Positions 1-24,877 of a DNA stretch of 64,000 nt are shown here, piece after piece. The stretch's first letter is position 1. Each line of letters opens with the position of its first letter. The notes under the pieces are model-generated. The model did no database searches. It saw only the letters and a list, made by a program, of their open reading frames with translations, and had not been told where the DNA came from. The DNA comes from Methylobacter sp. GTDB lineage: Bacteria > Pseudomonadota > Gammaproteobacteria > Methylococcales > Methylomonadaceae. The stretch lies in NCBI GenBank assembly GCA_030699385.1, contig JAUYMY010000012.1, positions 1-64,000 on the forward strand, read 5' to 3'. A program made the translations under genes and the position numbers.

Positions 1-2
1 GC

Positions 3-33
3 GAACAGTTCGCGGCCGGGTGGCCGCTCCCAC
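3..33. repeat. R1 (REP-like) arm at window edge
   Basis: The core is the reverse complement of GTGGGAGCGGCCACCCGG and lies just downstream of the head-protein gene. Only one arm is visible; a partner arm may lie outside the window. Confidence 0.8.
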
Positions 34-47
34 GAATTAATCAGACC

Positions 48-953
48 TTAGCCTGCGCCAGTGCTGCCCACAGACAGCTGCCAGAAGCCGTAAATGCCGG
101 TAGCCCTGGCTTCCGCCCCGAATTTGTACTCGGCCTTCATAAAAACATCATCGTTTTCAGTCGAGGTCTGCGAGACAAAAGTCGGGCGTTTGCGCATTTG
201 CACGATGTGCGGCTTGACCGCTTTGCTGGTTACATACAGATACCAAGCGGTATCTGAAGTCAGCGCCGGATTGACCAGCAACTTGGCTGTGCCCTTGTAC
301 GGATTCGGGCTGTTGTCGTCCAACTTGTCGGCCTCCAACAGCTTTTTAGCGGTCGCCTCCAGCGCGGGCGGCACTTCCAGCGTGTCCGGCATCAGCCTGA
401 GCGGCATGCCTTCATCATCGGTAAACTTCATGATTTTGATCCGCGCCGCCCCGTATCCCGCCGCCGCTAGAGTAGGCGTGGCCGAGCTCAATACCGCCGT
501 CAGCTTATTCGACACCGAAGCGCCGTTGACTTCATGGTCAGTATCATAAAAATACTGGCCGTCGATACCGGGGCTGGTAAACGCGCCGTTTTTTAAACTA
601 TCGACAATAATGTCATGCAGCTCCCCGGCGCTATCACCGGCCATTTGCGCCTGGGTGTTATAGATACCCAGCCGGTCGTCTTCGATGTCGTTTCGGCTCA
701 CGGCAATGGTGGTTTCCCAGTCTTCATTGACTGCGGTATAGCTGCCTGCGGCCAACGATTTGATGTGTTTCTCGCCGACCCACTTGCGCAGCATCGGGAA
801 GCGGCTCAACCAGGCGTAATCCTCGCTTGCCCCGGAACTTGGCACCTCCATGGCGGTAGCCTGCCAATTGCCCGTCTGGGCTTTCAGCGCGTTATTGAAA
901 ATTGTCTTTAACCCGGTAAATATGGTGTTGACGGTTGAAGCATTGACTAACAT
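48..953 (-). CDS. T: Mu-like major head subunit gpT
   Basis: Major capsid protein of Mu-type heads, 301 aa. The N-terminal half (LVNASTVNTIFTGLKTIFNN, then a tryptophan-rich TGNWQATA segment and a DWETTIAVSRNDIEDD segment) is what I know of the Mu gpT family, and the length is normal. It starts at ATG, 14 bases after the decoration protein stops, and is the last gene before the window edge. Being last in the I, decoration, T block fits Mu order. No damage is visible, so the head module looks intact. Confidence 0.93.
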   Translation of the reverse strand: MLVNASTVNTIFTGLKTIFNNALKAQTGNWQATAMEVPSSGASEDYAWLSRFPMLRKWVGEKHIKSLAAGSYTAVNEDWETTIAVSRNDIEDDRLGIYNTQAQMAGDSAGELHDIIVDSLKNGAFTSPGIDGQYFYDTDHEVNGASVSNKLTAVLSSATPTLAAAGYGAARIKIMKFTDDEGMPLRLMPDTLEVPPALEATAKKLLEADKLDDNSPNPYKGTAKLLVNPALTSDTAWYLYVTSKAVKPHIVQMRKRPTFVSQTSTENDDVFMKAEYKFGAEARATGIYGFWQLSVGSTGAG

Positions 954-966
954 AGTGGGCTCCTAA

Positions 967-1818
967 TTAAGCGCTTGGGGTAATAAGTAAGGTGACATTG
1001 GCAAACTTGGCCGCGTCATTGGTGCCGCCCACAGTGATCGAAATCACGTTGCCGACTGCCACCGTTTTTGCCGCCGAGGGCGTCACGCTGTCCACATCAC
1101 CAGCCGCAGAGCCCGCCTGGGTCACGGTAATCGCACCCGTGGTCACTGCGACCGCGCCGATTTTTGCGGTTAGCGTGGCGTCGCCGGTGGTCAGTGCGCC
1201 GTCGATCACGCTGTAGATCTTGTCGATGGTGCCCGCGACCGGCGACACGATGCGCTTGACCTCGGTGTTTGCGCCGATCAGGTCAATATCATGGAGGGTC
1301 ATCACGATTTTGTTGGCACCGCCGCCCAGGTTAGCGCGTGCTGTGGCCGCCGTGTCCAGATCGGACAAATTGCTGGCCGCCAATAACGCGCCCGCCGGAG
1401 CCACCAGGGCGTCTTGCCCCATGCGCACCCACACGCCGCCGGAATCGACATCTTCAATGATGCCCGCCGGTGAGCGGGTGCCGCCGCCGCTGGTCTTGGC
1501 TACGGTCTGGTCGTCTACGATGTAGCAGACTGTGCCGACCTCGGCCAGGGTGATAGCATCGCCCGCCGCCGAATTGGCCCACTGGAACACGCCGTTTTCG
1601 ACATTCCCGGTGACATCGCCTGCATTGCCTGCGCTGTTGTCGACCTGGCCGCTGATGCGCCCCACGCATTTAAGGCCGGTGGCCGTTGCGCCCTTGGTCA
1701 AATAGCCGCTGGCATTGATAACGCCGATGCTGCCCGCATAAACCAGCGCCGCCGCCAGCGGGTAGGTAAATTGCTGCCCGGATCGTGCCGGGGTGTGTCT
1801 GTCTTTTGCCAGTGCCAT
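967..1818 (-). CDS. DUF2190-type head decoration protein with fibre-like extension
   Basis: 283 aa. Residues 1-130 resemble DUF2190 capsid decoration proteins (basic N-terminus, then small beta-rich GVINASGYLTKGATA and GGVWVRMG segments). Residues about 145-165 carry SNLSDLDTAATARANLG, a motif typical of phage fibre and tail spike proteins. The rest is a Thr/Ala/Val-rich beta segment ending in ITVGGTNDAAKFANVTLLI. The start ATG overlaps the stop of the protease gene (TGATG), so the two are translationally coupled. I infer a decoration protein displaying an adhesin-like domain on the capsid. Confidence 0.75.
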   Translation of the reverse strand: MALAKDRHTPARSGQQFTYPLAAALVYAGSIGVINASGYLTKGATATGLKCVGRISGQVDNSAGNAGDVTGNVENGVFQWANSAAGDAITLAEVGTVCYIVDDQTVAKTSGGGTRSPAGIIEDVDSGGVWVRMGQDALVAPAGALLAASNLSDLDTAATARANLGGGANKIVMTLHDIDLIGANTEVKRIVSPVAGTIDKIYSVIDGALTTGDATLTAKIGAVAVTTGAITVTQAGSAAGDVDSVTPSAAKTVAVGNVISITVGGTNDAAKFANVTLLITPSA

Positions 1819-2363
1819 CAGTTAGCCCCTTTGGTCAGTTTAAATTCGTCAGGATCGACGCCCATGGCATTGCAAACCGCCAGCTCATCAGCGGTCAAAT
1901 GAGCGCCGCCGGTGTCAATCACAGGCGCTATGCCCCCGGTCTGCATCCCGCGCGGCACAATTTCCGGCGCTTTTTCAAGATAGGCGCTCAATACCGCCAG
2001 GGTCTGTCCGGCCGCCCAATTTTGTAATTCGGGTGTCGGTAGCTTACGGATGTTGTCCGCAATCAATTTGTCCCGATCAACTTCCGCGCTGGTGGCCGAC
2101 AGCGCCGCCAGCTGGGATTGCAGCGACAGCACCACGGCGACCGGCATAAACTGCGACATATCCGGCGCGGCTGCCACTTGCGCCGACAGTGCCACCAGTT
2201 CTTGGTCCTTGGCCGCCAGCGCCGCCGATAACGCGGTCACTGTGCCGTCAGGTGCAGTCAATTGCGTTTTCACCAAGTCCAGCGCCGGGGTAATGTCGGC
2301 GACGGTGGCGGTACTGGCTAGGCCAAGCACCGCGCACAGCGCCGCAAGTAGTTCTTTGTCCAT
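1818..2363 (-). CDS. Z: Candidate internal scaffold protein Z (in frame inside I)
   Basis: In Mu the scaffold Z is made from an internal start within I. Here an in-frame ATG at 2363 is preceded by AGGA with a 7-base gap (CAGGATGACACT then ATG). It opens a 181-aa product starting MDKELLAALCAVLG that covers just the Ala-rich, coiled-coil scaffold part. The position and ribosome site are seen directly; that it is used is inference from Mu. Confidence 0.6.
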   Translation of the reverse strand: MDKELLAALCAVLGLASTATVADITPALDLVKTQLTAPDGTVTALSAALAAKDQELVALSAQVAAAPDMSQFMPVAVVLSLQSQLAALSATSAEVDRDKLIADNIRKLPTPELQNWAAGQTLAVLSAYLEKAPEIVPRGMQTGGIAPVIDTGGAHLTADELAVCNAMGVDPDEFKLTKGAN

Positions 2364-2885
2364 AGTGTCATCCTGTGGGGTTGAGTAAATGAGAGCCGCC
2401 GCAGCAGCCAGGTCGGTTAAATCGTCTAAAGCGGGGTAATTGGTCAGCGCGGCCATCTTTACGCTGGTCACTGCGCCGCTTTGTTTGTCGTACAGAAAAA
2501 CAGGGCTTATGTAGCGGTATTCTTTGGCCGCAATCGCCGACAGCGCCGCCGGTGTCCAGTCCATGTCAACGGCATACAAGCCATCGCCGGAACGCCATTC
2601 CAAACGTCCGCCCCAACCGGCGGCCGGTGCAGGCTGGCCGTTCTTTTCGGCGCGCAGGGTTTGGTGGTCGTAATCAAGCAGAAACTTGCCTTTCAGCGCC
2701 GCATGAGCCGACAGCACCGACGCCGCCACAGCATCATCCATGACCCAGGCAGGCACATCGACCGGCCGCGCATCGCGCGCAGACCGGAACGAACCGGCGG
2801 GGATCAGTTTGATTTCAGACGGCGCACCGCCTGCCAGATCGACCAGCAGGGCGGATAACGCGACTAAGGTAGTGGGTTTGGGCAT
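1818..2885 (-). CDS. I: Mu-like head maturation protease gpI
   Basis: 355 aa, Mu I-family protease that processes the prohead. The N-terminus IKLIPAGSFRSARDARP, the FLLDYDHQT segment and EYRYISPVFLYDKQSGAV are characteristic of Mu-like I proteins. The C-terminal half is Ala-rich with coiled-coil character and should act as scaffold. I choose ATG 2885: a longer frame from 2918 would start at the predicted transcription start of the late promoter. The leader is short and no strong ribosome site is visible for this start. Confidence 0.88.
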   Translation of the reverse strand: MPKPTTLVALSALLVDLAGGAPSEIKLIPAGSFRSARDARPVDVPAWVMDDAVAASVLSAHAALKGKFLLDYDHQTLRAEKNGQPAPAAGWGGRLEWRSGDGLYAVDMDWTPAALSAIAAKEYRYISPVFLYDKQSGAVTSVKMAALTNYPALDDLTDLAAAAALIYSTPQDDTMDKELLAALCAVLGLASTATVADITPALDLVKTQLTAPDGTVTALSAALAAKDQELVALSAQVAAAPDMSQFMPVAVVLSLQSQLAALSATSAEVDRDKLIADNIRKLPTPELQNWAAGQTLAVLSAYLEKAPEIVPRGMQTGGIAPVIDTGGAHLTADELAVCNAMGVDPDEFKLTKGAN

Positions 2886-2918
2886 GGGTTTATGCGCTGA
2901 TGTTGGGAAACAGCGCAC

Positions 2919-2961
2919 AGCTTAGCCAAGGAAGCGGGCGGGAGAAATTAACGCCTGTAAA
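2919..2961 (-). promoter_or_regulatory. Late promoter PI-like (activator dyad plus -10)
   Basis: The plus strand shows TTAACGCCTGTAAA at 2948-2961, an imperfect dyad. On the minus strand the dyad is followed after exactly 23 bp by TAAGCT (2919-2924) as a -10-like hexamer. No -35 is present. The same layout occurs before the lysozyme gene. It sits directly upstream of gpI, where Mu has PI. Confidence 0.7.
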
Positions 2962-3132
2962 AAAATACCGGGCAGGGCGGGGGAAGGTATGGGAGCGGCG
3001 ACCCCATTGAACAGCGCAAATAAGCACCCAAAATAGCGCTGAGGCTGTCGAGGCACTATGTTAAATTGGTGTTAAATTTTTTTCCGGCTCGATGTGTGGG
3101 GTAACTAAAAATCGGCGCTTAAATCGCATTTT

Positions 3133-3576
3133 TTAACCCGGCGTCAAATAATCCCGCAACACGGCAAGAATGCCATCACGATCCGCTTCCGACACGCCAA
3201 AAAACGGCCGCGCCGGAATATCGCCCCACAAATGGGGGAACTCGTCTTTTGTACCGCCGAACTGCATCATGGCGGCATAGTCCGTAATCGGACTGCCGAC
3301 TTCCAGCGTGTCGCCATTGACTTGATAATCGATAGTGCTGCCCAAGATGCCGCCGTCGGTCAAAATCGGCTTAGCGCCTTTTCTGTCCACCGTGACCGGG
3401 CTATTGGCCGCCCATGCTGCGCCTTCCGGGGATTGCTGACTACCAAAGCGCTGCTTAGTCGATTCTGTCAAATCCTCGCCGATTTCAAGCAAGGCAGGGC
3501 GCAAGTTGCCGGTGTGTTGTGCCAGTTCACGCAGGGCGTTTAACACGGCAGCGTCGTTATAGTCGATGCTTATCAT
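3133..3576 (-). CDS. G: Phage virion morphogenesis protein (Mu gpG-like)
   Basis: 147 aa, phage virion morphogenesis family that completes tails. Recognisable parts are LRPALLEIGEDLTESTKQRF, the PILTDGGILGSTIDYQV segment and IPARPFFGVSEADRDGI. It lies between the F-like head protein and gpI, as G does in Mu. Its ATG overlaps the stop of the preceding DUF2513 gene (ATGA), so translation of the two is coupled. About 250 bases between it and gpI hold only the late promoter. Confidence 0.88.
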   Translation of the reverse strand: MISIDYNDAAVLNALRELAQHTGNLRPALLEIGEDLTESTKQRFGSQQSPEGAAWAANSPVTVDRKGAKPILTDGGILGSTIDYQVNGDTLEVGSPITDYAAMMQFGGTKDEFPHLWGDIPARPFFGVSEADRDGILAVLRDYLTPG

Positions 3577-3929
3577 GCCAATGCCCCGGTAATTAACACC
3601 TTCGCCACATCCTTAATCACGCTAAACGATAAATCAATGCCTTTGCTACGCGCGGTGGCTTTAATGCGCTGCCACAGGGTTTCATTTTTAATCTTGTCCA
3701 AAAATTCATGGCCTTCCCAAGTCAAGCGGTTGGCATGGCAACTGGGCGGACCGAGCGCGTCGCGACAGCCGCCGATGATTAACCCGGCTTCCAATAATAG
3801 CCGCATGTGATAGGCGACCGTTTCGGCATCTATTTCGGGCAATTCATGCGAATAAAAGTCGCTGCCCTCGGTGGGCAGCGCTTCGACTTTCAGCAGGATT
3901 TTTCGGATAATGTCCCAGTTGCGTTGCAT
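3573..3929 (-). CDS. DUF2513-family protein
   Basis: 118 aa. The sequence matches my knowledge of DUF2513: MQRNWDIIRKILLKVE at the start, a winged-helix-like YHMRLLLEAGLIIGG segment, LTWEGHEFLDKIKNETLW, and a C-terminal amphipathic to hydrophobic helix (IKDVAKVLITGALA). Its function is unknown. It is not part of the Mu head module but is inserted between the F-like protein and G and coupled to G by an ATGA overlap. AAGGA lies 5 bases before ATG. Probably a moron or immunity-type cargo gene; that role is a guess. Confidence 0.8.
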   Translation of the reverse strand: MQRNWDIIRKILLKVEALPTEGSDFYSHELPEIDAETVAYHMRLLLEAGLIIGGCRDALGPPSCHANRLTWEGHEFLDKIKNETLWQRIKATARSKGIDLSFSVIKDVAKVLITGALA

Positions 3930-4079
3930 GATGTTCCTTGGTTGATGTGTGGGCTTGTTATTGTCCGGTTTTGGGCTATACTCGGATTAAATGAGGGCGA
4001 GGCGTAGAAAATCGGCTTCTACGTGTCGTGGCCAATATCAATTGGCAGCATGAATGGAGGAACGGCCGACCTCCCGCCC

Positions 4080-5351
4080 TCATTTCACTTCTTTGTACAA
4101 TCCTCCCCTAATACGCTCGTCAATGGTTGTTGTTGCTTGCCTGAAGCCAGACACAATCATGTTAATCATTGGGTCGCCTTTTTTCAAATAATCAAACTCA
4201 ACGGCCAGTTTAATGCCTGCGTCAGCCGCCGCGACAATATAAAGCAATTTCCCGCTCTCCACGTCAAACAAAATACGCTCAGGATTGCCCACTATGTCCG
4301 GCAGTCTTCGCCATTCCGCTTCAAGCAGGCCATCGCCTTTTTTATCGTGCCGAGTTTGTTTTTCCCCGCGTAATAAGCCCTCACGAATGGCAATCTCGGC
4401 GGAGGCCGGACTTAATTGTTGTTCTTGCCTTAACCAGGACAACGTTTTTGGGGCAATGGCACCGACAACGGCAGACCGTCCTTTTTGCGCAGAGCCCAAC
4501 CATTCGCTTAATGTTGTCGTCCATTGCAGCTGCGTTTCCATAGCCAATGCAGGCTTTAGCGCCTGCCACATGCCCGCACCGATTTCGGCAGGAAAGCGTA
4601 TCAGTTTCTGGTCGATCAGGTCTTTTAGCGGCGTCGTGCGACTCGCCCCCGGCGCATAGTCCCAGCCGTAATCGATACCCTTAGGCACGGTGTGGGTCAC
4701 GCCTTCGCGGTCTGTTTTGGTGTAAGTGCCGTCATTCGGCGCTTTGTCGCCTTTAAATTCACTGGCCCGCACCGCTGTCACCCGGCAACGACAGCCCCAG
4801 CCGTTGGGCGGGTAATGCACTTTCCACCACGGGTCGCTATGATGCAACACTTTGCCGTTCCAGCTGAGATGCAAGGGCCTTGGGTTTGCCACCGTGTCGT
4901 TATGGATATATTTCCAATATGGCCGTGCCTTGAGCAGATCGGGGTCGGTCAGCTGGGCATAGCGCCCGGCGCTGTAGCTGCTCATGATGTTGGTGTTGTA
5001 AATCACCCGCGTGCGCCAGTCACGCCCCGCCTGGGTGTCTGAACCCGTCCAGCCTTCCCAGCCTTGTTTTTGCACGATGGCCGCAAACTCTTTTCTAAAC
5101 CAGTGGATGCTTTTGCCGTCAGCAATGGCCTTGTCGACCGCTTCGCGCAGATCGTTCAGCAGATCGGCCTTGGTTGCGCCGGCCACGACAAAGGCGCGGT
5201 CATGCGCGGCTTTTAAAATATCGTCGTAGGCTTCAGTGGGCAGGTTGAGTTTTTGCCGGAAGAAATTGATTTGTTCCTGGAATGGCAGGTTAAACTTGCC
5301 GTCGCCACGGGCGTTAAAGGCAATCTGGGTGGGGGATAGATTTAACGCCAT
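4080..5351 (-). CDS. Mu F-like minor head protein (gp30) with C-terminal extension
   Basis: 423 aa. Residues 1-200 are the Mu F/SPP1 gp7 minor head family: helical N-terminus, WRTRVIYNTNIMSSYSAGRY, then DTVANPRPLHLSWNGKVL and the HYPPNGWGCRCRV motif. The last 170 residues (about 255-423) are extra: LRQEQQLSPASAEIAIREGL, RRLPDIVGNPERILFD, KLAVEFDYLKKGD, VSGFRQATTTIDERIRGG. This looks like a PBECR-type (barnase/EndoU/RelE-like) nuclease domain, reported at the C-terminus of such head proteins; that domain call is moderate. The start ATG overlaps the 92-aa membrane protein gene. Confidence 0.87.
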   Translation of the reverse strand: MALNLSPTQIAFNARGDGKFNLPFQEQINFFRQKLNLPTEAYDDILKAAHDRAFVVAGATKADLLNDLREAVDKAIADGKSIHWFRKEFAAIVQKQGWEGWTGSDTQAGRDWRTRVIYNTNIMSSYSAGRYAQLTDPDLLKARPYWKYIHNDTVANPRPLHLSWNGKVLHHSDPWWKVHYPPNGWGCRCRVTAVRASEFKGDKAPNDGTYTKTDREGVTHTVPKGIDYGWDYAPGASRTTPLKDLIDQKLIRFPAEIGAGMWQALKPALAMETQLQWTTTLSEWLGSAQKGRSAVVGAIAPKTLSWLRQEQQLSPASAEIAIREGLLRGEKQTRHDKKGDGLLEAEWRRLPDIVGNPERILFDVESGKLLYIVAAADAGIKLAVEFDYLKKGDPMINMIVSGFRQATTTIDERIRGGLYKEVK

Positions 5352-5620
5352 GAATAACGAACTTTAAATATCATGCAACCGGCCTTTAACGTATAAATTA
5401 ACCGTTTGTCACGTAGATCCCGTGTAAATCCAAAGCCAAAAACAGACCAAGGATGATACCTAATTAGCAACCATTCAAACGGCCACCAACAATAACCAAG
5501 AGATGATTTTTTTTTATCACCGAAAACTATGACTACAAAATTAATAATCCGAAATATTAACAATCCGAGCAATACAAAAAAAACAACACACCCGAAATAA
5601 AGAATATATGAGTTAATCAT
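5342..5620 (-). CDS. Small membrane protein, head-region insertion
   Basis: 92 aa, not recognised. Residues 5-35 are a long hydrophobic helix (YILYFGCVVFFVLLGLLIFR, then IINFVVIVFG) followed by KKK and a Trp/Tyr-rich domain, so it is likely an inner-membrane protein with the C-terminus in the cytoplasm. The DNA is clearly more AT-rich than the flanking portal and F genes. It starts 3 bases after the portal gene stops and overlaps the F gene start by 10 bases. The composition and its absence from Mu suggest a recently acquired moron, perhaps for superinfection exclusion (guess). Confidence 0.65.
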   Translation of the reverse strand: MINSYILYFGCVVFFVLLGLLIFRIINFVVIVFGDKKKSSLGYCWWPFEWLLIRYHPWSVFGFGFTRDLRDKRLIYTLKAGCMIFKVRYSWR

Positions 5621-5622
5621 CG

Positions 5623-7200
5623 TTATTCACCCTCCCGCACATCAAACCGCCCAGACAAATCCGCAGCTGCAAAGGCCAGCGCCATCACACTGGTCAGTCT
5701 GTCGCTGTCCAAATCGCCGAAGCCATGCAGCAGCCGGTCGCGCAACGATTCCAGACTGTCGGCCTGTTCGACCTGATCCCGGATGCTGTCCACCATACTT
5801 TTGACCGACGCCCCGGCCGCAACGGCCAGCACATCGGCTTGCACCTCAGTCACATCCGCCGTGGGAGCGGCCACCGGGCCGCGAATAGCGGATAGCGCCG
5901 CCAGTGCCGTGCCTGCTCCCACAGTGTCTGCTCCCACAGTGGCCGCCACTTGCAACACCTCTTCGTCACCCTCCGGCTCAGGAATTTTTAACCGCGCATA
6001 GGCATAACGCGCCGGAATGCGCAACCCAACACCCGCCAATTTGGGCAGTGCATCGGCATACAGCGCCAGATCGTCCGGCTCCTGCGTATCGCTGACCCAG
6101 CTCGGACAGCGGTTATCGGCGAAGAGGCCGTTCAGCATTGCCATTGGATAGACCAGATAACTGCTCAGCGTCTGATCCAGTTGCACCGCGTCATCGTCGC
6201 GGATGTCCATGCGTACTTCGTTATGCACCTCGCCCAAGGAGCGGTTGCCGTTGGCGGCGGTCGAACTGGTCAGGGTGCCGCCTAAAATCGCTTTGGACTG
6301 ACTGGCCTCGCACCAGTTGACCATGGCCATAAAACTGTCGGCATTGCCCGAGGCCATCACCTGCTGCAACTCCAGCTGCATGGTGTCGGGGATAATCCCG
6401 GCCGCATTGTGGCCGATGCTCAATACCGTCCTGAGCAAATCGCGTTTTTCCTTGTCGCTGGCAGTCGGCGGGTATTTGCCCACCCTAATCGGCAATCCGT
6501 AGATTTCCAAAAACTCGGCCAGATCGCGCACTGAATAATTCTTGTACAGATACGGCCACGCCAGCGCCCGAAACAAGCCGGTTCTGGCAATATACCCCGC
6601 CCTGGACTTGTGAAAATGCGGAATCCAGCCGAACGGCTGCAACGGCGTGCCGATCATGGAACCGCCATCGCGCAGGTGCAGCACATTGCGCTGATCCGGC
6701 GGACAGACAAACCAGGTCGGCGGCCGGTGCTCAATCTGGTTAGGAAACCACAGCCCCGCCGCCGTGCGCCCCCAGCCCAGCTCGATACATGAATAGCCGT
6801 GACCGATCGCGTCCAGCGCATCCATGCGCAAACTGCCGATGTCCAACTCGTCGTTAATCAGATCCTGCAATTTTTTGGTGTTGGCTTTTTCGGCGGCCGA
6901 CGCGTCGCGCGGCGGGCGCAATTCCCAATCCAGCTTCTTGACCGCCATCTCGCGCTTGCTCAGCTCTGCGCCAATGTGGGTGTCTTTTTCGCGCATGTCC
7001 ATAAACAGCTCGGCCTGTGCGGTCAGATCGCCCTGTTCGGCACGGATAAAAATATCCGCCAGCCGCGCCGGTGTCAGGCCTTTGGACGGGTGTTCGGCAA
7101 ATTCACGGTGCAGCATGGCCGCCTGCGGCGCATCGGTTTGGCGCTGTTTAACCGTCGCCGGGGTTAGTTTTGCCGTAATCCAGTCAGTCAGAAAATTCAT
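5623..7200 (-). CDS. DUF935 portal protein (Mu gp29)
   Basis: 525 aa, portal through which DNA enters the head. Mu gp29/DUF935 features: HPSKGLTPARLADIFIRAEQ near residue 40, LFMDMREKDTHIGAELSKRE, WELRPPRDAS, then FIPHFHKSR-like and LRVGKYPP-like segments and GEVHNEVRMDIRDDDAVQLD. Its ATG overlaps the terminase stop (TAATG). The C-terminal region around 5861-5886 contains a degenerate R1 repeat read in frame (IRGPVAAPTADV). Confidence 0.93.
   Translation of the reverse strand: MNFLTDWITAKLTPATVKQRQTDAPQAAMLHREFAEHPSKGLTPARLADIFIRAEQGDLTAQAELFMDMREKDTHIGAELSKREMAVKKLDWELRPPRDASAAEKANTKKLQDLINDELDIGSLRMDALDAIGHGYSCIELGWGRTAAGLWFPNQIEHRPPTWFVCPPDQRNVLHLRDGGSMIGTPLQPFGWIPHFHKSRAGYIARTGLFRALAWPYLYKNYSVRDLAEFLEIYGLPIRVGKYPPTASDKEKRDLLRTVLSIGHNAAGIIPDTMQLELQQVMASGNADSFMAMVNWCEASQSKAILGGTLTSSTAANGNRSLGEVHNEVRMDIRDDDAVQLDQTLSSYLVYPMAMLNGLFADNRCPSWVSDTQEPDDLALYADALPKLAGVGLRIPARYAYARLKIPEPEGDEEVLQVAATVGADTVGAGTALAALSAIRGPVAAPTADVTEVQADVLAVAAGASVKSMVDSIRDQVEQADSLESLRDRLLHGFGDLDSDRLTSVMALAFAAADLSGRFDVREGE
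5861..5886. repeat. Degenerate R1 repeat inside the portal gene
   Basis: GTGGGAGCGGCCACCGGG continues to GCCGCGAAT and matches the R1 core except around the loop. It is read in frame by the portal gene. Two further GCTCCCACAGTG pieces follow at about 5914-5942. Confidence 0.65.
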
Positions 7201-16263: not shown

Positions 16264-16278
16264 ATGTCTCGCTCCCAA

Positions 16279-16656: not shown

Positions 16657-16660
16657 CAGA

Positions 16661-16753: not shown

Positions 16754-17124
16754 CAGACTCTCCTGACCGCAGCCTTAATCAGCGCGGCAATCTTTTCCCG
16801 ATTCGCCCGCGCCTTGTCCTCGGGATACGCTGGGGCATCCAGGGCGGGATCTTTATATACTCTCGGCGGCAACAGCGGCCGCAATTGGCTGGGGCTCGGC
16901 CAGCGCTGGCTTTGCGCGGCCAGTTGCAAAAACGCGGCTTTCAACCGTGGTTTGTCCAGTTCTTCGTTCCAGGTGATAGGCCATTGGCTAATCACCCGCA
17001 CCCAGATGGTCGCGGTCTTGGTCACGGTTTCAGCAGCGGGGCCGCCGTCCAAATGCAGCACCACCAGCGCCTGCAAACATTCGGACACGGTTTTTCTAAG
17101 CCAATCCAAGTCATCAGTAGCCAT
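16753..17124 (-). CDS. Early-region protein, unknown (123 aa)
   Basis: MATDDLDWLRKTVSECLQAL, then IWVRVISQWPITWNEELDKP, RLKAAFLQLAAQSQRWPSPS, QLRPLLPPRVYKD and a basic helical tail. The central pattern of a Trp-rich segment followed by WPSPSQL resembles phage replication-associated proteins, but I cannot name the family. GGAGG lies upstream of ATG 17124, inside the end of the previous gene. Confidence 0.75.
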   Translation of the reverse strand: MATDDLDWLRKTVSECLQALVVLHLDGGPAAETVTKTATIWVRVISQWPITWNEELDKPRLKAAFLQLAAQSQRWPSPSQLRPLLPPRVYKDPALDAPAYPEDKARANREKIAALIKAAVRRV

Positions 17125-18068: not shown

Positions 18069-18080
18069 GGTAATCGTCCG

Positions 18081-18350
18081 TTATTCGTCTGATTTACTGT
18101 CTTGGTCACTATCAATAACTAAGCGCCCCATTCTCGCCACCGCACCAAAATTGTGCCCTTCTTTTTGCGCTAAAATGCTCAATTTTGCGGCATTAATTTC
18201 GCACTGAATATTGTCGTTCAATACTTTCATGCTAGCCGCGATTGCCATGCCCGTTGAAACCGAAATGTTGCCGTCACGCAGCTGAATCATGGTCTCCAAA
18301 ATGAATCGGCGGGCGTCGCCAAAATTATCAATGCTAGTTATTTTACTCAT
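18081..18350 (-). CDS. Early-region protein, unknown (89 aa)
   Basis: MSKITSIDNFGDARRFILET, MIQLRDGNISVSTGMAIAAS, then a helical part ending in an acidic tail (VIDSDQDSKSDE). Its ATG overlaps the preceding stop (ATGA). Similar proteins with a GNISVSTGMAIA-like middle occur in phage early regions; no function is known to me. Confidence 0.78.
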   Translation of the reverse strand: MSKITSIDNFGDARRFILETMIQLRDGNISVSTGMAIAASMKVLNDNIQCEINAAKLSILAQKEGHNFGAVARMGRLVIDSDQDSKSDE

Positions 18351-18835
18351 AGTTGTTTACCTATCTGTCTCATCATTGCGGTTGTTAATCTGATAAATTC
18401 TTTGTTTCTATTTTCTGGCTTTGGCGAAAAAGCGTTTCCCGGAAATATCGGCTCCCAGCCACGAAAAGCCTGGTTCACCCCCAAACAACCACCCTGATAA
18501 TAGGCACCGTTACGACCATACGTACAATTGTCGTTCCATGCTCTTTTCGAGCTAAATTCAGGATGCTTTTTCGTAAATAACTCATAAAACGCACGAAACT
18601 CATCCGGCCAGACTACCGATTTCATCCTGACCCAGCGCGACATAATCTTTGTCCACGCCGATGCTTGTGAGTCATATCGCATCGCTAAATACCCAGCAAA
18701 AGGGATATAATTTTTCTGCCACATCTCTTTTGCGGGCATAAAACGCACCTCGACAGGAATGCCTAAATATCGCGGCTTATTGATGGCAATGTGGATTTTT
18801 GCCAGCTGTTGTTGTTTGGTTTGTGGTTTGTGCAT
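18347..18835 (-). CDS. Early-region protein, unknown (162 aa)
   Basis: MHKPQTKQQQLAKIHIAINK at the N-terminus closely resembles the start of GemA (QIELAKIHIA). The rest differs: a Trp/Tyr/Arg-rich domain with SRWVRMKSVVWPDEFRAFYE and CTYGRNGAYYQGGCLGVNQA. GGAG lies 6 bases before ATG 18835. A phage-type enzymatic or DNA-binding role is possible but I cannot assign it. Confidence 0.75.
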   Translation of the reverse strand: MHKPQTKQQQLAKIHIAINKPRYLGIPVEVRFMPAKEMWQKNYIPFAGYLAMRYDSQASAWTKIMSRWVRMKSVVWPDEFRAFYELFTKKHPEFSSKRAWNDNCTYGRNGAYYQGGCLGVNQAFRGWEPIFPGNAFSPKPENRNKEFIRLTTAMMRQIGKQL

Positions 18836-18865
18836 TAATCTCTCCAGGTTAAACATGATCGTCAC

Positions 18866-19103
18866 GGGCTGGACGGGGCATGTTGCCCCGTCCGAAACGT
18901 TTTAAACGTTGCAACGGGGGACATACCCCGTCGCGCGTTAAAATCAATAAAACCACGGGCTGGACGGGGCATGTTGCCCCGTCCGAAACGTTTTAAACGT
19001 TGCAACGGGGTACATACCCCGTCGCGCGTTAAGCATGTTGCCCCGTCCGAAACGTTTTATGTTCGCTCAAAACGTTGCAACGGGGTACATACCCCGTCGC
19101 GCG
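18866..19103. repeat. Three R2 copies in tandem
   Basis: Copies at 18866-18937, 18958-19029 and 19031-19103. The first two lack the spacer inside the middle hairpin (AACGTTTTAAACGTT only); the third lacks the outer part of the first hairpin. They fill the gap between two early genes. Confidence 0.9.
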
Positions 19104-19108
19104 GTAAA

Positions 19109-19435
19109 TCAATAAAACTCCAGCCCACGGCCGGTGTTGACGTTGACCGCCTTACCGGTCAAAAACTGCCGGGCCAACGCCAAATCCATCGCCCGCGATG
19201 GTTGCTGACGCTTATCTTCAAATGTCGCCGCGCGTTTGCGCTTAGTCAGCGCCCGATGCCGCCCGACCGGATCACTGGCTATCCACGCCAGCGCCGCCTC
19301 GGCACGATACGTAAAGCCCTTTCCCTGCTTGGCGACCGGTTGCGGCGCGTCTTCGTATTGCAGCAAATCGCCGAGAAAGGCACGCGATATGCCCAGCAAT
19401 TCGGCCATCTGTTCACGCGTCATCAGATCTTCCAT
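19109..19435 (-). CDS. Excisionase/MerR-like HTH protein
   Basis: 108 aa. MTREQMAELLGISRAFLGDL, then APQPVAKQGKGFTYRAEAAL and AWIASDPVG form a winged helix as in AlpA/Nu1-type DNA-binding proteins. The C-terminal half is basic. The start overlaps the stop of the 76-aa gene (TAATG). Likely a DNA-binding early regulator; target unknown. Confidence 0.78.
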   Translation of the reverse strand: MEDLMTREQMAELLGISRAFLGDLLQYEDAPQPVAKQGKGFTYRAEAALAWIASDPVGRHRALTKRKRAATFEDKRQQPSRAMDLALARQFLTGKAVNVNTGRGLEFY

Positions 19436-19665
19436 TAGTGCATCCTCTTTTCTACCATATTGGTTATTGTTGGCTCGCCGCTTTCAATGTCGTCAATGGC
19501 AGCCTGTAAAAATCCTGCGACAAACTCATCGCCCATCAAGTGCCTAAACAAATCTATCAGCAGAATCAATACGCGCTGTAAAAAATCAGAAGTTTCCTCT
19601 TTGCTACGGCCGCCAAGATCCATTAACTGATTAACGCGTTGTTTTATAAATGCCATGTCCATCAT
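19435..19665 (-). CDS. Small early protein, unknown (76 aa)
   Basis: Helical: MAFIKQRVNQLMDLGGRSKE, then DFLQRVLILLIDLFRHLMGD and AAIDDIESGEPTITN. The middle helix is amphipathic to hydrophobic. ATG 19665 overlaps the DUF3164 stop (TGATG) with GGGG 5 bases before. Confidence 0.72.
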   Translation of the reverse strand: MMDMAFIKQRVNQLMDLGGRSKEETSDFLQRVLILLIDLFRHLMGDEFVAGFLQAAIDDIESGEPTITNMVEKRMH

Positions 19666-20288
19666 CACAACCCCGCCAAATCCAGCGCCAACTGGTCGAA
19701 CTTGCCGGAACTGTTGCGCCGGTAGATGCGCAGATAAGCCTTAGTGCTGACCACTTGCATCGAGTCGCGCAAGGCCTGCATCGCCGCCATCCATTGCTCG
19801 TCATCAATATCCAGTTGCAGCAGGGTATAAATGCGCCCAAGGCTGATCTTGCCCTCTTTATCCGTCTGAAAAGCGTGTTCGACCAGCGCCTTAACTTCGT
19901 TGCCGCTGCCCTCAGTCCAACGATGAATACAGGCATCGACCAGCTCTTTCGCCGCTTGCAGGCGTTCGTCGAAAATCTTCACGTCGGCCTGCGAGAGCTT
20001 GATTTGATACTGGCCGTCGAAGCTGCACAAGGTGATGTTGCCCTTGATACCGCCCAATTTCAGGCCGTATTTTTCAGCGGACAGCTCGACAAAGGCCTGG
20101 ATGTCGCCAAACGCTTCGTTTTTAAAATCGCCCATAATCGTCCGCAAGTCGTTGGCTTTACTGACAATCTCCAGCACCAGATTGTCGCGGGTTTTGTCGA
20201 TCTCGCTGACCAGTGCGCTGGGCACCAAATGGCCTGCGCCGTTGCGTAAATAGCCTAAGGGGATTTCGTTGCGGGTTAATTCGTTCAT
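19665..20288 (-). CDS. DUF3164-family protein
   Basis: 207 aa. GYLRNGAGHLVPSALVSEID, EAFGDIQAFVELSAEKYGLK, GGIKGNITLCSFDGQYQIKL and ELVDACIHRWTEGSGNEVKA are diagnostic of DUF3164, a near-universal early gene of Mu-like phages downstream of B. The role is unknown; sometimes called a sulfate transport-like protein in databases without basis. It starts a tight run of coupled genes down to 19109. Confidence 0.93.
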   Translation of the reverse strand: MNELTRNEIPLGYLRNGAGHLVPSALVSEIDKTRDNLVLEIVSKANDLRTIMGDFKNEAFGDIQAFVELSAEKYGLKLGGIKGNITLCSFDGQYQIKLSQADVKIFDERLQAAKELVDACIHRWTEGSGNEVKALVEHAFQTDKEGKISLGRIYTLLQLDIDDEQWMAAMQALRDSMQVVSTKAYLRIYRRNSSGKFDQLALDLAGL

Positions 20289-20336
20289 GTGTGTACCTAT
20301 TATTAAGAGTTAATTGTGTGTTACTGCCTAACCAAT

Positions 20337-20416
20337 GCGCGACGGGGTATGTACCCCGTTGCAACGTTTTGATGCGGACATAAAACGTTTCGGACGGGGC
20401 AACATGCCCCGTCCGG
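20337..20416. repeat. R2 element
   Basis: Full copy in the gap between the 20480 gene and DUF3164, in the opposite orientation to the 18.9 kb copies and the same as 14843. The CTCTGCGCCGACCTCTGCGC stretch beyond it looks like further repeat debris. Confidence 0.87.
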
Positions 20417-20479
20417 CGAAGCTCTGCGCCGACCTCTGCGCGCCTCTGCGGTTAAACCTTTACCAAGTCCGCCAAACTA

Positions 20480-20881
20480 TCAATGCGTCCACGGCAATGG
20501 CCTGATCGGCTTATGCCAAACCACCTTCACGCCATCCATGACCGCCGCATAATCGCGGTACATCTGCCCACCCGCGCCGCTCTGGCCGGTGCAGACCGAC
20601 ACTAAGCGCACCGTATCAGCACAGGGTTTGATAGTGATAGACGGGCAATCGCCAAAGCGCGCGGTCAACACGCTAAAGCCCATATCCTTGAGCTGTCCCG
20701 CCACCAAAGCCACTTGCCCAATGGCCACCGGTTCAACCGGCCGGTTAAGCATTTGGTAGCTCTTCATGCTGTCCGCCTGACGGGAGCAGACGCTCTCCTC
20801 GTGGGAGCGGCCACCCGGCCGCGAACTGTTCGCAGTGTTCGTGGCCGGGTGACCACTCCCGCCCAAATTAAACAAACTCAT
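20480..20881 (-). CDS. Early protein, unknown, with REPIN near its start
   Basis: 133 aa if started at ATG 20881, which has GGGGG 5-6 bases before it and overlaps the previous stop (ATGA). After MSLFNL the frame runs through an R1 pair (20801-20861), then reaches MKSYQMLNRPVEPVAIGQVA, AGQLKDMGFSVLTARFGDCP, SITIKPCADTVRLVSVCTGQ. ATG 20767 is a second possible start (95 aa) with a weak ribosome site. I think the older gene began at 20881 and the REPIN entered in frame. Family not recognised. Confidence 0.72.
   Translation of the reverse strand: MSLFNLGGSGHPATNTANSSRPGGRSHEESVCSRQADSMKSYQMLNRPVEPVAIGQVALVAGQLKDMGFSVLTARFGDCPSITIKPCADTVRLVSVCTGQSGAGGQMYRDYAAVMDGVKVVWHKPIRPLPWTH
20801..20861. repeat. 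R1 inverted pair (REPIN)
   Basis: Two inverted R1 arms with the same linker as 17607-17668. It lies six codons after the start of the 20881 gene. Confidence 0.88.
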
Positions 20882-21081
20882 AAATCCCCCGCCTTATACA
20901 CATCGGCCAGATGCACCGCCGCCTTCAGCACTAAAATCAGCGCATCGCACTCGGCGGTATTGAGCACCGCCGCCTGCACCTGACCATCAACCTCCATTTC
21001 CAAGCGAATCACCCGGCTGGACATGTCCGTCATCGTGGTTACGGTATCGCCGCTTAACAAACCTAATTTATTCAAAAACAT
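20878..21081 (-). CDS. Small early protein, unknown (67 aa)
   Basis: MFLNKLGLLSGDTVTTMTDM, SSRVIRLEMEVDGQVQAAVL, NTAECDALILVLKAAVHLAD. Two beta strands followed by a helix. Coupled to its downstream neighbour by ATGA. Not recognised. Confidence 0.7.
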   Translation of the reverse strand: MFLNKLGLLSGDTVTTMTDMSSRVIRLEMEVDGQVQAAVLNTAECDALILVLKAAVHLADVYKAGDL

Positions 21082-21083
21082 CA

Positions 21084-21389
21084 CTATTCCCCCTTGTGGT
21101 GACAGGACTGGCAGGCTTCCCACCAGACTAATTTAGACGCGCCGCCGAAAGGACGGGGCGCGGTGGAGCGGTTGCGGCACACGTCCCGACCGATGATTTC
21201 ACCGGCATACGGACACTGCACCACGTTGACAAACTTCCGCGCAAAGGCGTTCAGGATCGGCGTCGGGTTTGGATAATGCCCGGTGCAGACCATACGCACC
21301 GCCGATTTTTTAATCCCCAGCGTGTCCGCCAACACATGAGTGCCGACTTCTTCGCGTTTGCTTTTAAACTGCATCAATAACTCATCCAT
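21084..21389 (-). CDS. Early protein with zinc-binding C-terminus (101 aa)
   Basis: MDELLMQFKSKREEVGTHVL, ADTLGIKKSAVRMVCTGHYP resembles an HTH. The second half has cysteines at CPYAGEII, CRNRSTAPRP and CQSC(HH), as in small phage proteins with a treble-clef-like finger. It overlaps the 111-aa gene by 8 bases, so ATG 21389 is preferred over the longer frame. DNA-binding role likely, target unknown. Confidence 0.75.
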   Translation of the reverse strand: MDELLMQFKSKREEVGTHVLADTLGIKKSAVRMVCTGHYPNPTPILNAFARKFVNVVQCPYAGEIIGRDVCRNRSTAPRPFGGASKLVWWEACQSCHHKGE

Positions 21390-21717
21390 GACCCAACTCC
21401 TGCTTGCTGTTCGGGTCAAACACCACCCCGTCAGCCCTGACGATAGGCGGCAATGGCCCCAGATTGCGCACCAGCACATAGCAATAACTGCCGTTGCTGG
21501 TCAGGATCCCGTCGTCTTCGCGTTCAGCCTCCAACACGCCGACCGCGACCAAGCGCAACAACCAGCGCCGCAGGTTGGAATCGGCGCTTTTCTCCTCGCC
21601 GGTGCAGATCGAGCGCTGGATTTCCACCAGCGTCATCGCCTTATTTTTCCGCATCACCCACCACGCTTTAGCCCTAAGGCCGCGCGTGGCTTTTATTTTT
21701 CTTCTTCGTACTGCCAT
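21382..21717 (-). CDS. Winged-helix early protein (111 aa)
   Basis: Basic start MAVRRRKIKATRGLRAKAWW, then VMRKNKAMTLVEIQRSICTG and NLRRWLLRLVAVGVLEAERE, a winged-helix pattern; the C-terminus SYCYVLVRNLGPLPPIVRAD is typical of Mu-like phage proteins found just after B. Probably DNA-binding. Confidence 0.78.
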   Translation of the reverse strand: MAVRRRKIKATRGLRAKAWWVMRKNKAMTLVEIQRSICTGEEKSADSNLRRWLLRLVAVGVLEAEREDDGILTSNGSYCYVLVRNLGPLPPIVRADGVVFDPNSKQELGHG

Positions 21718-21743
21718 TATCTCTACTCCGGTTTTTATGATGG

Positions 21744-22472
21744 CTACTTACCGCGCCGCAATGACTTCATCGCGTCCTGACACAACATCACCCCTTTCAC
21801 ATCGGCCGCCGTCAGCGTGGCAGTGCCCTTGGCCTCGGCAATGTCCTCCAAAATCCGCCCGGCATTCGACAGCAAACGGTAACGCCCCCGCGACTGGGTC
21901 AACGCCTGCTGCACAATGGCCGCATCGACCGTCACCTCGCACAATTCCTGCAAATACAGCTTGCAATCATCAAACGTGGCCGGCACAAACTCGACCAGGG
22001 CGCTGATGCGGGTCGCGATATGCGCCAGCTTGTGTTCACCAAATCGATGCTTCTCACTGGCATGGCACACCAGAATCAACACACTCCCGGCTTGCTCACA
22101 AATACGGCGCAGGTATTCGATACAGTCCGCCTTGCTCGCCAGCCCGTGCTGCGCTTCATCTAAAATCACCGTCGGATGACGTTGGTTAAAGGTATCGACA
22201 ATGGCCTTTTGCTGGGCAAACTTGGTGCCGCCCTGGCAACCCAATTCATAGGCCAACAAGTCACGCAAATACGCCACGGTCATTCCCGGCATCCCCTCAA
22301 TATGGATGGCATTGCGTTCCGCGCCGATGTTGTCGACACAGCGTGATTTGCCGGTACCGGGCTCACCGGCCAACAGCAAAATCCGCGCTTCCCGTGGTGC
22401 GCGTGTTTCCACGCCCTCCAGCATCGCCATAAACAGGCGGTGATTGCTGGTTTTCACATAGTGGTTTTTCAT
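21744..22472 (-). CDS. B: Mu B-like target-selection ATPase
   Basis: 242 aa AAA+ ATPase that binds target DNA and activates the transposase. Walker A GEPGTGKS (residues 36-43), Walker B TVILDEAQ (101-108), sensor-like LILVCHASEKHRFGEHK. I choose ATG 22472 (AGAGGATT before it), because family members begin with a similar M..H..TSN motif. An open frame extends to GTG 22622 through a REPIN and an unconserved stretch. Confidence 0.93.
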   Translation of the reverse strand: MKNHYVKTSNHRLFMAMLEGVETRAPREARILLLAGEPGTGKSRCVDNIGAERNAIHIEGMPGMTVAYLRDLLAYELGCQGGTKFAQQKAIVDTFNQRHPTVILDEAQHGLASKADCIEYLRRICEQAGSVLILVCHASEKHRFGEHKLAHIATRISALVEFVPATFDDCKLYLQELCEVTVDAAIVQQALTQSRGRYRLLSNAGRILEDIAEAKGTATLTAADVKGVMLCQDAMKSLRRGK

Positions 22473-22548
22473 CGTATAATCCTCTTGCTTTGTTTTAAAA
22501 ATGCCGTCCGGTTGCAGCCGAACAGCGTGTTGTAGCATCTGCCACCTT

Positions 22549-22610
22549 GTGGGAGCGGCCACCCGGCCGCGAACAGTTCGCATTGTTCGTGGCCGGGTGG
22601 CCACTCCCAC
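22549..22610. repeat. R1 inverted pair (REPIN) between A and B
   Basis: Arms joined by AACAGTTCGCATTGTT. It lies in the 146-base gap between the transposase stop and the B start; the whole gap is open in the B frame. Confidence 0.9.
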
Positions 22611-22618
22611 TTCCTCAC

Positions 22619-24823
22619 TCACTTCCCCTCTTTCATCTTTTGCAGCATCAACACCGTGTCTTCATAGCTGCCCTCCTCATCCTCTTGCTTGTTAAATTTC
22701 CCCACCAAAACCGGTGCCTTTAACGCTTCCTCCTTCTCCCTAAATATCACCGGCACTTCAACCAACTCCTCCTCTTTCTCCCGAAAAATAACCGGTACCG
22801 GCGTCAACACTTCGCCCTCAAGGTCATAGCCCAATTCCGCATAAGCCTGGTCAATCTTGGCCTGTCCGCGCTTGGCCATGCCCTCGATCCGCTCGTCCTT
22901 AATCCTGTCCTTCTTCGACTTGGCAAAGCCATCCACCTTGTTGCCGTTCCACACTGCGATACAGATAAAAACCCCCTCCAAATCACTGATCCAGACATGA
23001 TCGGCATGGTGCAGGTCGTAAGCCACCCGCACCTTGCTGTTGCTCGGCAGTTCCGCCAGTTGCGGGTGGTAATAAATGTTATTGATCCAGCGCACCTCGC
23101 CGCGATCCGGTTTCCTAATGACAAAGGGCCGGAATAAATTAAGCGCCTCGTCCTCAGTCAACGGGCACGACCACGTTGGGTCAAAGTTGGCAAAATACAC
23201 CTCAGCCGGGGTCTTGCCGCCCAAACTACTATGCTTGTGGTCACTGTTATAAGTGTCGAAACGTTCCTCACACGCCGCCATAAACACCTGCCAGGTCGGC
23301 ACAAACGCCGGGACTTCGCCTTTCAGCTTGGCGCTGTTAATCATATTGGTGTGCTTGCGCAACGTGTCGCCATCCATGCCGGTGCCCTGAAACGTCGGAA
23401 AGGTCTTCGCCACCGCAATCGCGGTAATATCCCAAAGCCCCTCAATCAATCCGCGCCCCTGCGCATTGCCCGGAATCCCGGTCTCGTGGCGCACCCCCAG
23501 CCTCGCCAGCATCCCGCCCACCTTGCAATCGATGATTTTCGCCGTCTGCCCGGAACCGTTGTCCGAGTAATAAATCAGCGGCTTGCCATGCTTCAACATG
23601 CCTTGCCCCAGCGCTTCCGACACCGCCAGCTGGTTCTCGGAAAGACTAAACGCCCAACCGACAATAAACCGGCTCGCCGCATCGATAATCACCGTCACTT
23701 CCGGCGCAAACGCCTGACCGGTTTCAGGGTGGCGCACCTTCGCCTTAAAGGTATGGCCGTCGCCGACCCACACTTCATTGCTCGATCCCGACCAGTCCCG
23801 GCGGATAAACGGCTTCATCGCCGCCAGCGCCGAACCGGTGCAGCGCCCGGTTTCCCGCACCAAGGGCGGCATCAGTTTTAACACCCTATTGACCGCCGAA
23901 ATGCTCGGCAACCCGGCCAAATCAAGCCCCTGTTCCAGCCAGTCCTGCTTGAACACCGCATAAGCCTCAGTCTGTTTCGGCTTTTGCGGCTTGCGGTAGG
24001 CCGCCAAAAACAGCGGCAACCAAGTGACATCCTGCCAGCGCTCCTTAACCCGCGTTTTCGCCGGCAGACAATGGCCGGTGGCCTTTTTCAGCGCCTTCCA
24101 TTTGGTCACCGTACTGTCCGACACCAGACCTCTGCGGCAATCGTTCAGTTTGTCGTTGCACTGCTCGATGGCCTGCGCCATTTCAGGCAACAACGCCCCG
24201 GCGGCGTAGCCCTGCGTCAAAAACCCACACGCCGCCTTGGTCGACCCCGGATAAGCCTCGACAAACTGCAAGATCAGCTGCCGTGCGCCATCGACCCGGC
24301 GCTGTTTGTCGTCGGCCAGGCTCAAACTAAGCCCGCGCCCCTGAGGTCTGACTGCAACAGCGCTGTCCACAGCTTTAGCGCTATTCCGGCCTTTTCGGTC
24401 AACTGCAAGTGCGGTTCCAGCGTTATCAGGCCGTATTTTTGCAATTGGAGCTGATCCGACAGCGGCAACGACAGCGCCTCCCCCGACTTCATCAACAACA
24501 GTCCCCGGAATTGGTATAAGCTGACTTCCCGCGACAGGGCTAACAGCTCCGTTTCCAGCGTCCGCGTTGATTGCGCTGCTGGGTTGATGGCTTGATTCTT
24601 TTCCATGATTGACTCCTAAATTAAATCGATAAGTAAAAACAGCGGTTTGCACCGCCTTGGGCAAGCTCTTCAGCGCATACAGGCGTTTTTTGTGTCGGCT
24701 GTGTGTCGCTTGTTCGGTGTAAGGCCAGTTACTCTTGTCGGCCTTGCGTTCAGCCGAGCGTTTCGATAAGCCCAGCGCGGCGGCAATCTCCTCCGTCGAC
24801 GCCGGGCGGTTAATGTCGTCCAT
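22619..24823 (-). CDS. A: Mu A-like DDE transposase
   Basis: 734 aa (MuA is 663). Order: N-terminal Mu-type HTH (residues 1-68, STEEIAAALGLSKRSAERKA), an Ala/Gly/Val-rich linker (about 75-165), a helical DNA-binding part, then the RNase H core with Asp in GDGHTFK (about 354), Asp in SDNG (about 416) and Glu in GLIEGLWD (about 459), and the C-terminal barrel. The tail holds a direct repeat (VPVIFREKEEELVE, VPVIFREKEEALK). GGAGGGGG precedes ATG. Intact. Confidence 0.95.
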   Translation of the reverse strand: MDDINRPASTEEIAAALGLSKRSAERKADKSNWPYTEQATHSRHKKRLYALKSLPKAVQTAVFTYRFNLGVNHGKESSHQPSSAINADAGNGAVSPVAGSQLIPIPGTVVDEVGGGAVVAAVGSAPIAKIRPDNAGTALAVDRKGRNSAKAVDSAVAVRPQGRGLSLSLADDKQRRVDGARQLILQFVEAYPGSTKAACGFLTQGYAAGALLPEMAQAIEQCNDKLNDCRRGLVSDSTVTKWKALKKATGHCLPAKTRVKERWQDVTWLPLFLAAYRKPQKPKQTEAYAVFKQDWLEQGLDLAGLPSISAVNRVLKLMPPLVRETGRCTGSALAAMKPFIRRDWSGSSNEVWVGDGHTFKAKVRHPETGQAFAPEVTVIIDAASRFIVGWAFSLSENQLAVSEALGQGMLKHGKPLIYYSDNGSGQTAKIIDCKVGGMLARLGVRHETGIPGNAQGRGLIEGLWDITAIAVAKTFPTFQGTGMDGDTLRKHTNMINSAKLKGEVPAFVPTWQVFMAACEERFDTYNSDHKHSSLGGKTPAEVYFANFDPTWSCPLTEDEALNLFRPFVIRKPDRGEVRWINNIYYHPQLAELPSNSKVRVAYDLHHADHVWISDLEGVFICIAVWNGNKVDGFAKSKKDRIKDERIEGMAKRGQAKIDQAYAELGYDLEGEVLTPVPVIFREKEEELVEVPVIFREKEEALKAPVLVGKFNKQEDEEGSYEDTVLMLQKMKEGK
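24322..24606 (-). CDS. Overprinted 94-aa frame inside the transposase linker
   Basis: Same strand as the transposase but another frame. AGGAG lies 6 bases before ATG 24606, inside codons for FNLGVNHG. The product (LETELLALSREVSLYQFRGL, DQLQLQKYGLITLEPHLQLT, GIALKLWTALLQSDLRG) looks like an ordinary helical protein. The transposase reading of the same DNA is low-complexity Ala/Gly/Val, as expected if the linker tolerates whatever the inner gene needs. No family recognised. Confidence 0.5.
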   Translation of the reverse strand: MEKNQAINPAAQSTRTLETELLALSREVSLYQFRGLLLMKSGEALSLPLSDQLQLQKYGLITLEPHLQLTEKAGIALKLWTALLQSDLRGAGLV

Positions 24824-24851
24824 ACCCCCTCCTATGTGGGCGTGTTACCCC

Positions 24852-24877
24852 GTGGGAGCGGCCACCCGGCCGCGAAC
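24852..24877. repeat. R1 single arm upstream of the transposase gene
   Basis: GTGGGAGCGGCCACCCGG continuing to GCCGCGAAC, between the transposase start and the 51-aa gene. Confidence 0.85.

Follow-up and report, generated by a model that had tools for sequence, protein, structure and literature searches.

How a bacteriophage comes to hold a dense population of a bacterial repeat, as its target, its carrier or merely the place where copies collect, is the question raised by the window analysed here, the opening 64 kb of C31, a contig of 80,224 bases in a draft Methylobacter genome (G000; 3,566,647 bases in 84 contigs). The window begins with a Mu-like prophage strewn with R1, a sequence of the repetitive extragenic palindrome (REP) type, which also occurs as inverted pairs, or REP doublets forming hairpins (REPINs). 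We find that R1 has colonised this prophage, at a density 14.7 times that found elsewhere when all bases of the genome, and not those between genes alone, are counted. The copying of REPINs into the phage and within it was most likely the work of a REP-associated tyrosine transposase (RAYT) that reached single-stranded phage DNA in trans.

An earlier note on this DNA had taken the stretch for a Mu-like prophage, and Pfam and PHROG matches agree: its recognised genes, all on the minus strand, are those for gpT capsid, Mu protease, morphogenesis S, F, portal, terminase, gp27, lysozyme, Mor, GemA, DUF3164, MuB and MuA, and thus include the MuA transposase, MuB and Mu head genes that characterize Mu-like phages. 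The R1 core (GTGGGAGCGGCCACCCGG) has 15 matches in the window at up to three mismatches, all between positions 16 and 24,869, where shuffling of the 64,000 bases predicts 0.07; ten are exact and 14 have at most two mismatches. When exact sites within 150 bp of each other are joined, nine loci result in the prophage stretch, and there is an extra one-mismatch site in the portal gene (5,861), which bears out the previous count of at least nine. R1 (GTGGGAGCGGCCACCCGGCCGC) has the GT(A/G)G head and imperfect palindrome of a REP. The four tight inverted pairs already noticed (17,178, 17,607, 20,801 and 22,549) were all recovered, with lengths of 58–62 nt, and they fold far better than shuffled DNA (z of −5.5 to −10.1); 29 REPINs from host DNA span 61–64 nt. 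The REPIN layout proposed earlier (GTGG head, hairpin, inverted pairs) holds. A fifth pair, 10,523/10,643, is an R1 REPIN with an element of a second family, R2, nested inside it. R1 does not keep to extragenic DNA, as GemA, the gene after it and the portal gene of the phage all contain copies; extragenic location is rather a descriptive feature of REPs than a strictly defining one.

R1 is a genome-wide REP family of this Methylobacter. At up to two mismatches it has 150 sites, 74 on one strand and 76 on the other, and the reversed control sequence has none. Fourteen of these sites lie in the 24.9 kb of the prophage stretch and 136 outside it. Thus, the count in the full genome that had been proposed reveals a prophage that is enriched in R1, but not the phage-only enrichment that the earlier note had named as support, since the repeat is not confined to phage DNA. 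The unusual density itself stands, and equal density in host DNA was not observed: nine of the 80 exact loci of the genome fall within the 24.9 kb, the runner-up 25-kb window has three, and in 5,000 uniform simulations no window attained nine. R1 is also absent from the host part of C31 (27.0–80.2 kb), in line with the earlier impression; however, the density in the rest of the genome predicts only about two sites there, with a probability of 0.13 of finding none, so this absence means little. Of 60 further genomes from the genus, the family or the order, one shares the exact core, in 28 copies: G020 (Methylobacter sp. C17 bin 6, also labelled G062). R1 REPINs seem to break the draft assembly, 13 of the 84 contigs starting with an exact core within 55 bases (C5, C10, C21, C24, C31, C36, C38, C39, C41, C42, C56, C58 and C83).

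G020 carries a sister prophage that is ∼95% identical to the window over 16,280–18,046, 91% identical in the portal gene and 77–96% identical in the other long aligned stretches. The REPIN at 17,607 is missing from this sister, which is 95% identical around the site, and from an outgroup phage (L054). Translations place the difference near the end of GemA, which reads DAAKRG-GDDAA in G020 and DAAKRG-SGHPATNTANSSRPGGRSHEAG-GDDAA in the window and has no insert in L054: 66 bp, consisting of the REPIN plus a few extra bases, add 22 residues and keep both the frame and the C-terminus. Because the sister prophage lacks this in-frame insert, the comparison comes close to showing that REPINs enter the phage as discrete units, and the occupied and empty versions of the site mark R1 as mobile in that form. 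The R1 REPIN at 22,549 and the R2 elements at 18,866–19,102 and 20,337 are likewise absent from the G020 prophage, although an R2 palindrome is present elsewhere on its contig; the REPIN at 20,801 is internally shortened there, R3, a sister REP of R1, replaces R1 at 11,981, and a short remnant near 39,206 in G020 has no equivalent in the window. Both phages have R1 at 17,178, at 24,852 and in the portal gene. This turnover bears on the view that selection has preserved the hairpins because they serve as terminators, mRNA stabilisers or gyrase/integration host factor-type sites, and that their spread reflects function. Several hairpins are indeed intergenic, two of them come after terminator-like hairpins, and such roles for REPs have been put forward (PMC3733652). 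Nevertheless, the gain and loss of sites between sister phages, the nesting of R2 within R1 and the non-intergenic copies in GemA, its neighbour and the portal gene make this explanation unlikely.

Both phages carry the REPIN at 17,178 within the open frame of the gene next to GemA. That at 20,801 may be part of a gene too: it falls within the open reading frame (ORF) 20480–20881, though L054 appears to start at the later Met. In the portal protein, the REP-derived stretches VAAPT and VGADTVGA were sought in all 120 listed homologues, 70 of which were aligned, and were found in one, that of the sister phage (P0001). The portal linker, around residue 425, is very variable in length among the aligned proteins (P0001–P0070), and modules like SQPGQGDNPAQ recur across many phages; such modules may stem from inserted repeats. 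An N-terminal extension of the MuB ORF through the REPIN at 22,549 was considered and rejected, as the sister phage has a stop directly before the downstream ATG.

The phage copies also resemble one another. The REPINs at 17,607, 20,801 and 22,549 differ pairwise by 2, 2 and 4 changes and stand at least 3 changes (mean 8.3) from each of the 29 host REPINs, a sample of the genome taken from fetched loci with both arms within four mismatches, partly from a list in which 40 of 164 candidates were scored. Out of 4,960 trios, only this one is equally tight and isolated; the REPIN of the sister phage (PHB42530) was not included. These sequence distances set the three best REPINs of the phage apart, as a subfamily of their own, from the 29 host REPINs in the sample. 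This matters for the idea that the REPs were gained by recombination with host DNA, of which Mu-type phages package the ends, and not by REPIN transposition. Mu-like phages do use many insertion sites and pack host DNA along with their own, and passages on the transposable phage Ab30 (PMC5977238) describe insertion hotspots beside REP-like palindromes, which is the reverse relation to REPINs inside a phage. However, the phage copies are unlike those sampled from the host, and the difference at 17,607 is a bare REPIN with a few extra bases; we regard recombination as the least probable of the explanations weighed here.

Homology to the G020 prophage ends near 27,034, as judged by eye, on the tRNA-Met side here and on the tRNA-Lys side in G020. 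Related phages therefore occupy different host sites in G000 and G020, so the prophage has moved. An old resident passively collecting host REPs, the insertions being harmless, would explain why several phage loci lie within genes as if tolerated, whereas in host DNA no ORF of 100 amino acids or more spans the site at 15 of the 20 separate loci inspected (these 20 were the first listed of the genome-wide sites, four of them at contig starts). The single REPs at 11,981, 13,416 and 24,852, which look decayed, fit the same picture. However, capsid, portal, terminase, lysozyme, MuA and MuB are long open genes, the GemA insertion preserves frame and C-terminus, the best phage REPINs are unlike the sampled host REPINs and the phage has changed its site, and we think that passive collection is improbable, if a little less so than selection for function.

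The second family, R2, lay unmentioned in the earlier note. It consists of paired hairpins containing CGTC, with AACGTTTT in the spacer between them. At up to two mismatches its palindrome occurs at 28 places in the genome, six of them in the same 25 kb, which is 39 times the density in the rest of the genome. The other, tail half of the prophage, we infer, is on contig C56, adjacent to C31: C56 starts with an R1 core, followed by a head–tail adaptor, tail genes and a 2,539-codon gene at the place of the tape-measure gene in L047, a viral contig from IMG/VR. When ∼15 kb of C56, taken as prophage, is added to the stretch, the enrichment becomes ∼9-fold for R1 and ∼28-fold for R2.

R2 also meets its enzyme in this genome. 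Copies lie upstream and downstream of a RAYT gene, a 177-codon open frame on contig C84 (C84:84,651–85,184). The NCBIfam RAYT model has seven matches in G000, corresponding to five RAYT-like loci and an IS200-like transposase gene on C71; the latter was discarded as a RAYT, with 25 bits against a cut-off of 80. The search for a RAYT with matching flanking REPs, suggested in the earlier note, thus succeeded for R2 and, in relatives, for R3 (GTGGGAGCGACGCCYACGTCGC), which flanks a RAYT gene on either side in G022, in G021 and, with one mismatch, in G027. A relative in G039 is likewise bracketed by other GTGGGAGCG repeats, and one in G021 has such a repeat next to it; this clade is the likely source of the enzyme of R1. 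A truncated RAYT on C10, with its ATG ∼60 bp from an R1 core, was rejected as the R1 transposase; it is a relative (55% identical) of the C58 RAYT, and both adjoin another palindrome, as seen by eye. By the same inspection, the RAYTs at C58:5117–5656 and C4:3128–3787 (L040 and L039) each seem to have a different palindrome of their own adjoining the gene, and G000 may hold at least four REP families.

Phage replication would supply single strands, into which a RAYT acting in trans would insert R1 and R2; the REPIN copies in the phage could then seed further copies within it, and the phage might carry REPINs to new hosts. The phage is both of what had been offered as alternatives, a target of the element and a carrier of it.

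Several observations weigh against this. No R1-flanked RAYT was found in G000 (five RAYT loci inspected; 87.8% complete) or in G020 (seven matches; 99% complete), nor were relatives of the R3 RAYT at E ≤ 1e-15 in either genome. Since G000 is 87.8% complete and so many of its contigs start with an R1 core, an R1 RAYT lying between REPINs could be missing from the assembly; loss of the gene is also possible, because G020 is 99% complete. In the first 20 kb of the tail half (C56:1–20000), the sole R1 is that of the junction and R2 occurs once, and the sister phage has only two exact R1 cores, out of the 28 in G020, and one R2 palindrome. The phage trio is small, and the 29 host REPINs are a sample. 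Whereas 4 changes separate the REPIN at 22,549 (PH22549) from that at 20,801 (PH20801), only 3 separate it from the host REPIN L143, and the REPIN at 17,178 has its nearer kin among the host copies of G020, not in the trio. Finally, a phage of G022 (L050) has no R1 or R3 within three mismatches in 21.6 kb, though the G022 host has 53 sites, and neither do L054 and L055 in the stretches examined.

Beyond this genome, Mu-like phages of methanotrophs might host REPIN populations of their own, parasites on a parasite that would use a borrowed RAYT to multiply as the phage replicates, add new peptides to its proteins and travel with it from host to host; we put this forward tentatively, as less probable than not. 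In IMG/VR, the spacer pattern of the trio matches one viral contig, L047, which has tail genes, a tape-measure gene and two R1 REPINs. REPs of the GTGGGAGCG type were found in 11 stretches of eight viral contigs, which include L047 as well as UViG_3300025536_000039, which is Mu-like (portal 41%) and has three R3 REPINs, and UViG_2517287034_000001, with a Mu-like protein (Mor 35%) and one R3 site. Five other contigs of this search carry GC-rich look-alikes, and their examined stretches do not match any of 12 phage proteins; the same is true of the examined stretches of L045 and L046, viral contigs with a single R1 match each. Against generality, neither the R1 REPIN nor an R2 element has a match (E ≤ 0.01) among 50,697 records of phages.

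Three side observations may be added. An ∼80-base repeat in L047 (∼1,423–1,506) matches nine places on seven G000 contigs (C71, C14, C74, C40, C78, C38 and C11) at 84–96%, and is a further repeat that phage and host have in common. In the Mu-like contig with R3 REPINs (L170, 1,510–1,600), a tandem run of GGCGTCGCTCCCACA-like half-heads lies beside a REPIN. The phage also seemed to be present in a Rhodocyclaceae assembly (L048 = G061:C25). That contig is 99.987% identical to contig C207 of the Methylobacter genome G062 over 30,422 bases, which extend beyond the prophage and include genes matching PNPase, TruB, IF-2 and NusA. As this near-identity switches, after 30.4 kb and at a join beside tRNA genes, to DNA of 59–64% GC (L060, ∼10,420; JAUXOM010000036.1), the contig is probably chimeric and we claim no transfer across classes.

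The features of the prophage stretch are listed in Table 1. Blocks of ∼40–90 nt around terminator-like hairpins recur several times between 11886 and 14771 of the window, and the R1 copies at 11981 and 13416 both lie within one such 40-nt repeat.

Table 1. Repeats and genes of the prophage stretch (positions are those of the window)
Feature	Position	Strand	Basis
Half R1 REPIN at contig edge, just after gpT gene; exact core 16–33	1..35	-	Other half inferred at start of C56
Mu-like prophage genes (gpT to MuA)	48..24823	-	Pfam/PHROG
R1 core and decayed GTGGGAGC heads in portal gene, in frame, variable linker	5857..5938	+	Core match; homologue comparison
R1 REPIN with R2 nested between halves	10523..10660	.	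Core match, folding
R2 element (the nested one)	10551..10635	.	Palindrome match
Single R1 REP right after terminator-like hairpin; R3 there in sister phage	11981..12002	+	
Single R1 REP; 40 nt in common with 11975–12014 (phage-internal duplication)	13416..13437	+	
R2 element and extra half hairpin	14845..14954	.	Palindrome match, folding
R2 element	15712..15799	.	Palindrome match
R1 REPIN, 58 nt, within open frame of gene ∼17593 to 17114 (-); also in sister phage	17178..17235	.	
R1 REPIN, 62 nt, in 66-bp in-frame insert near 3′ end of GemA; not in sister phage or L054	17607..17668	.	
GemA with 22 extra residues SGHPATNTANSSRPGGRSHEAG ahead of normal GDDAA end	17580..18068	-	PF06252, translations
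Three R2 elements in tandem, third partial; none here in sister phage	18866..19102	.	
R2 element; none here in sister phage	20337..20417	.	
R1 REPIN near 5′ end of ORF 20480–20881; internally shortened in sister phage	20801..20862	.	
R1 REPIN between MuA and MuB; no R1 here in sister phage	22549..22610	.	
Single R1 REP upstream of MuA; kept in sister phage	24852..24873	+	
Right prophage end, repeated end motifs; sister homology stops, different host DNA beyond	26800..27034	.	By eye

With the REPIN/RAYT systems of Pseudomonas, Stenotrophomonas and E. coli, R1 shares the GTGG head, the hairpin, inverted pairs of 58–64 nt and ∼150 sites per genome, and it closely resembles REPs of P. putida, for instance TGTGGGAGCGGGCgTGCCCGCGAA, given in a passage of PMC2817692. 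Unlike them, it is dense in a phage, lies in frame in phage genes, forms a phage-type group and has no cognate RAYT found in G000 or G020. In the P. fluorescens group, passages of PMC3390384, which likewise concern the position of REPs relative to prophages, map mobile elements to REP-devoid regions, whereas no other 25-kb window of this genome has as many exact R1 loci as the prophage described here, which also holds six of the 28 R2 places. Rickettsia palindromic elements, in-frame inserts of ∼150 bp in coding genes of bacteria according to passages of PMC10969869, resemble our insertions, by description, in lying in frame within genes; here the inserts are REPINs and the genes those of a phage. 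The CGTC of the R2 hairpin recalls the CGTC-tagged palindromic repeats mentioned in PMC3733652, but R2 is paired, flanks a RAYT and is enriched in this phage. Mu-like transposable phages such as Haemophilus SuMu and Mannheimia 3927AP2 have MuA/MuB and Mu-type head genes in common with the prophage. MuA matches 148 phage records, with 38.9% identity at best among the 12 matches listed (all <60%); these known phages differ from ours in the absence of R1 REPIN and R2 matches reported above. We found no report of a REPIN-rich phage in the open-licence literature searched.

According to passages of PMC8049555 and PMC6006769, the probable agents of REPIN copying are RAYTs, which are related to the HuH enzymes and, like these, work on single strands. 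The former models REPINs as vertically inherited, and its passages report no evidence of significant horizontal transfer at the species level. A horizontal route for REPINs becomes directly testable here, with a REPIN insertion that has no counterpart in the sister phage, a phage-type group and a second family with its host RAYT. If our reading is true, a repeat held to be near-exclusively vertical gains a route between bacteria through a phage, and 'extragenic' palindromes would be seen to extend phage proteins in frame.

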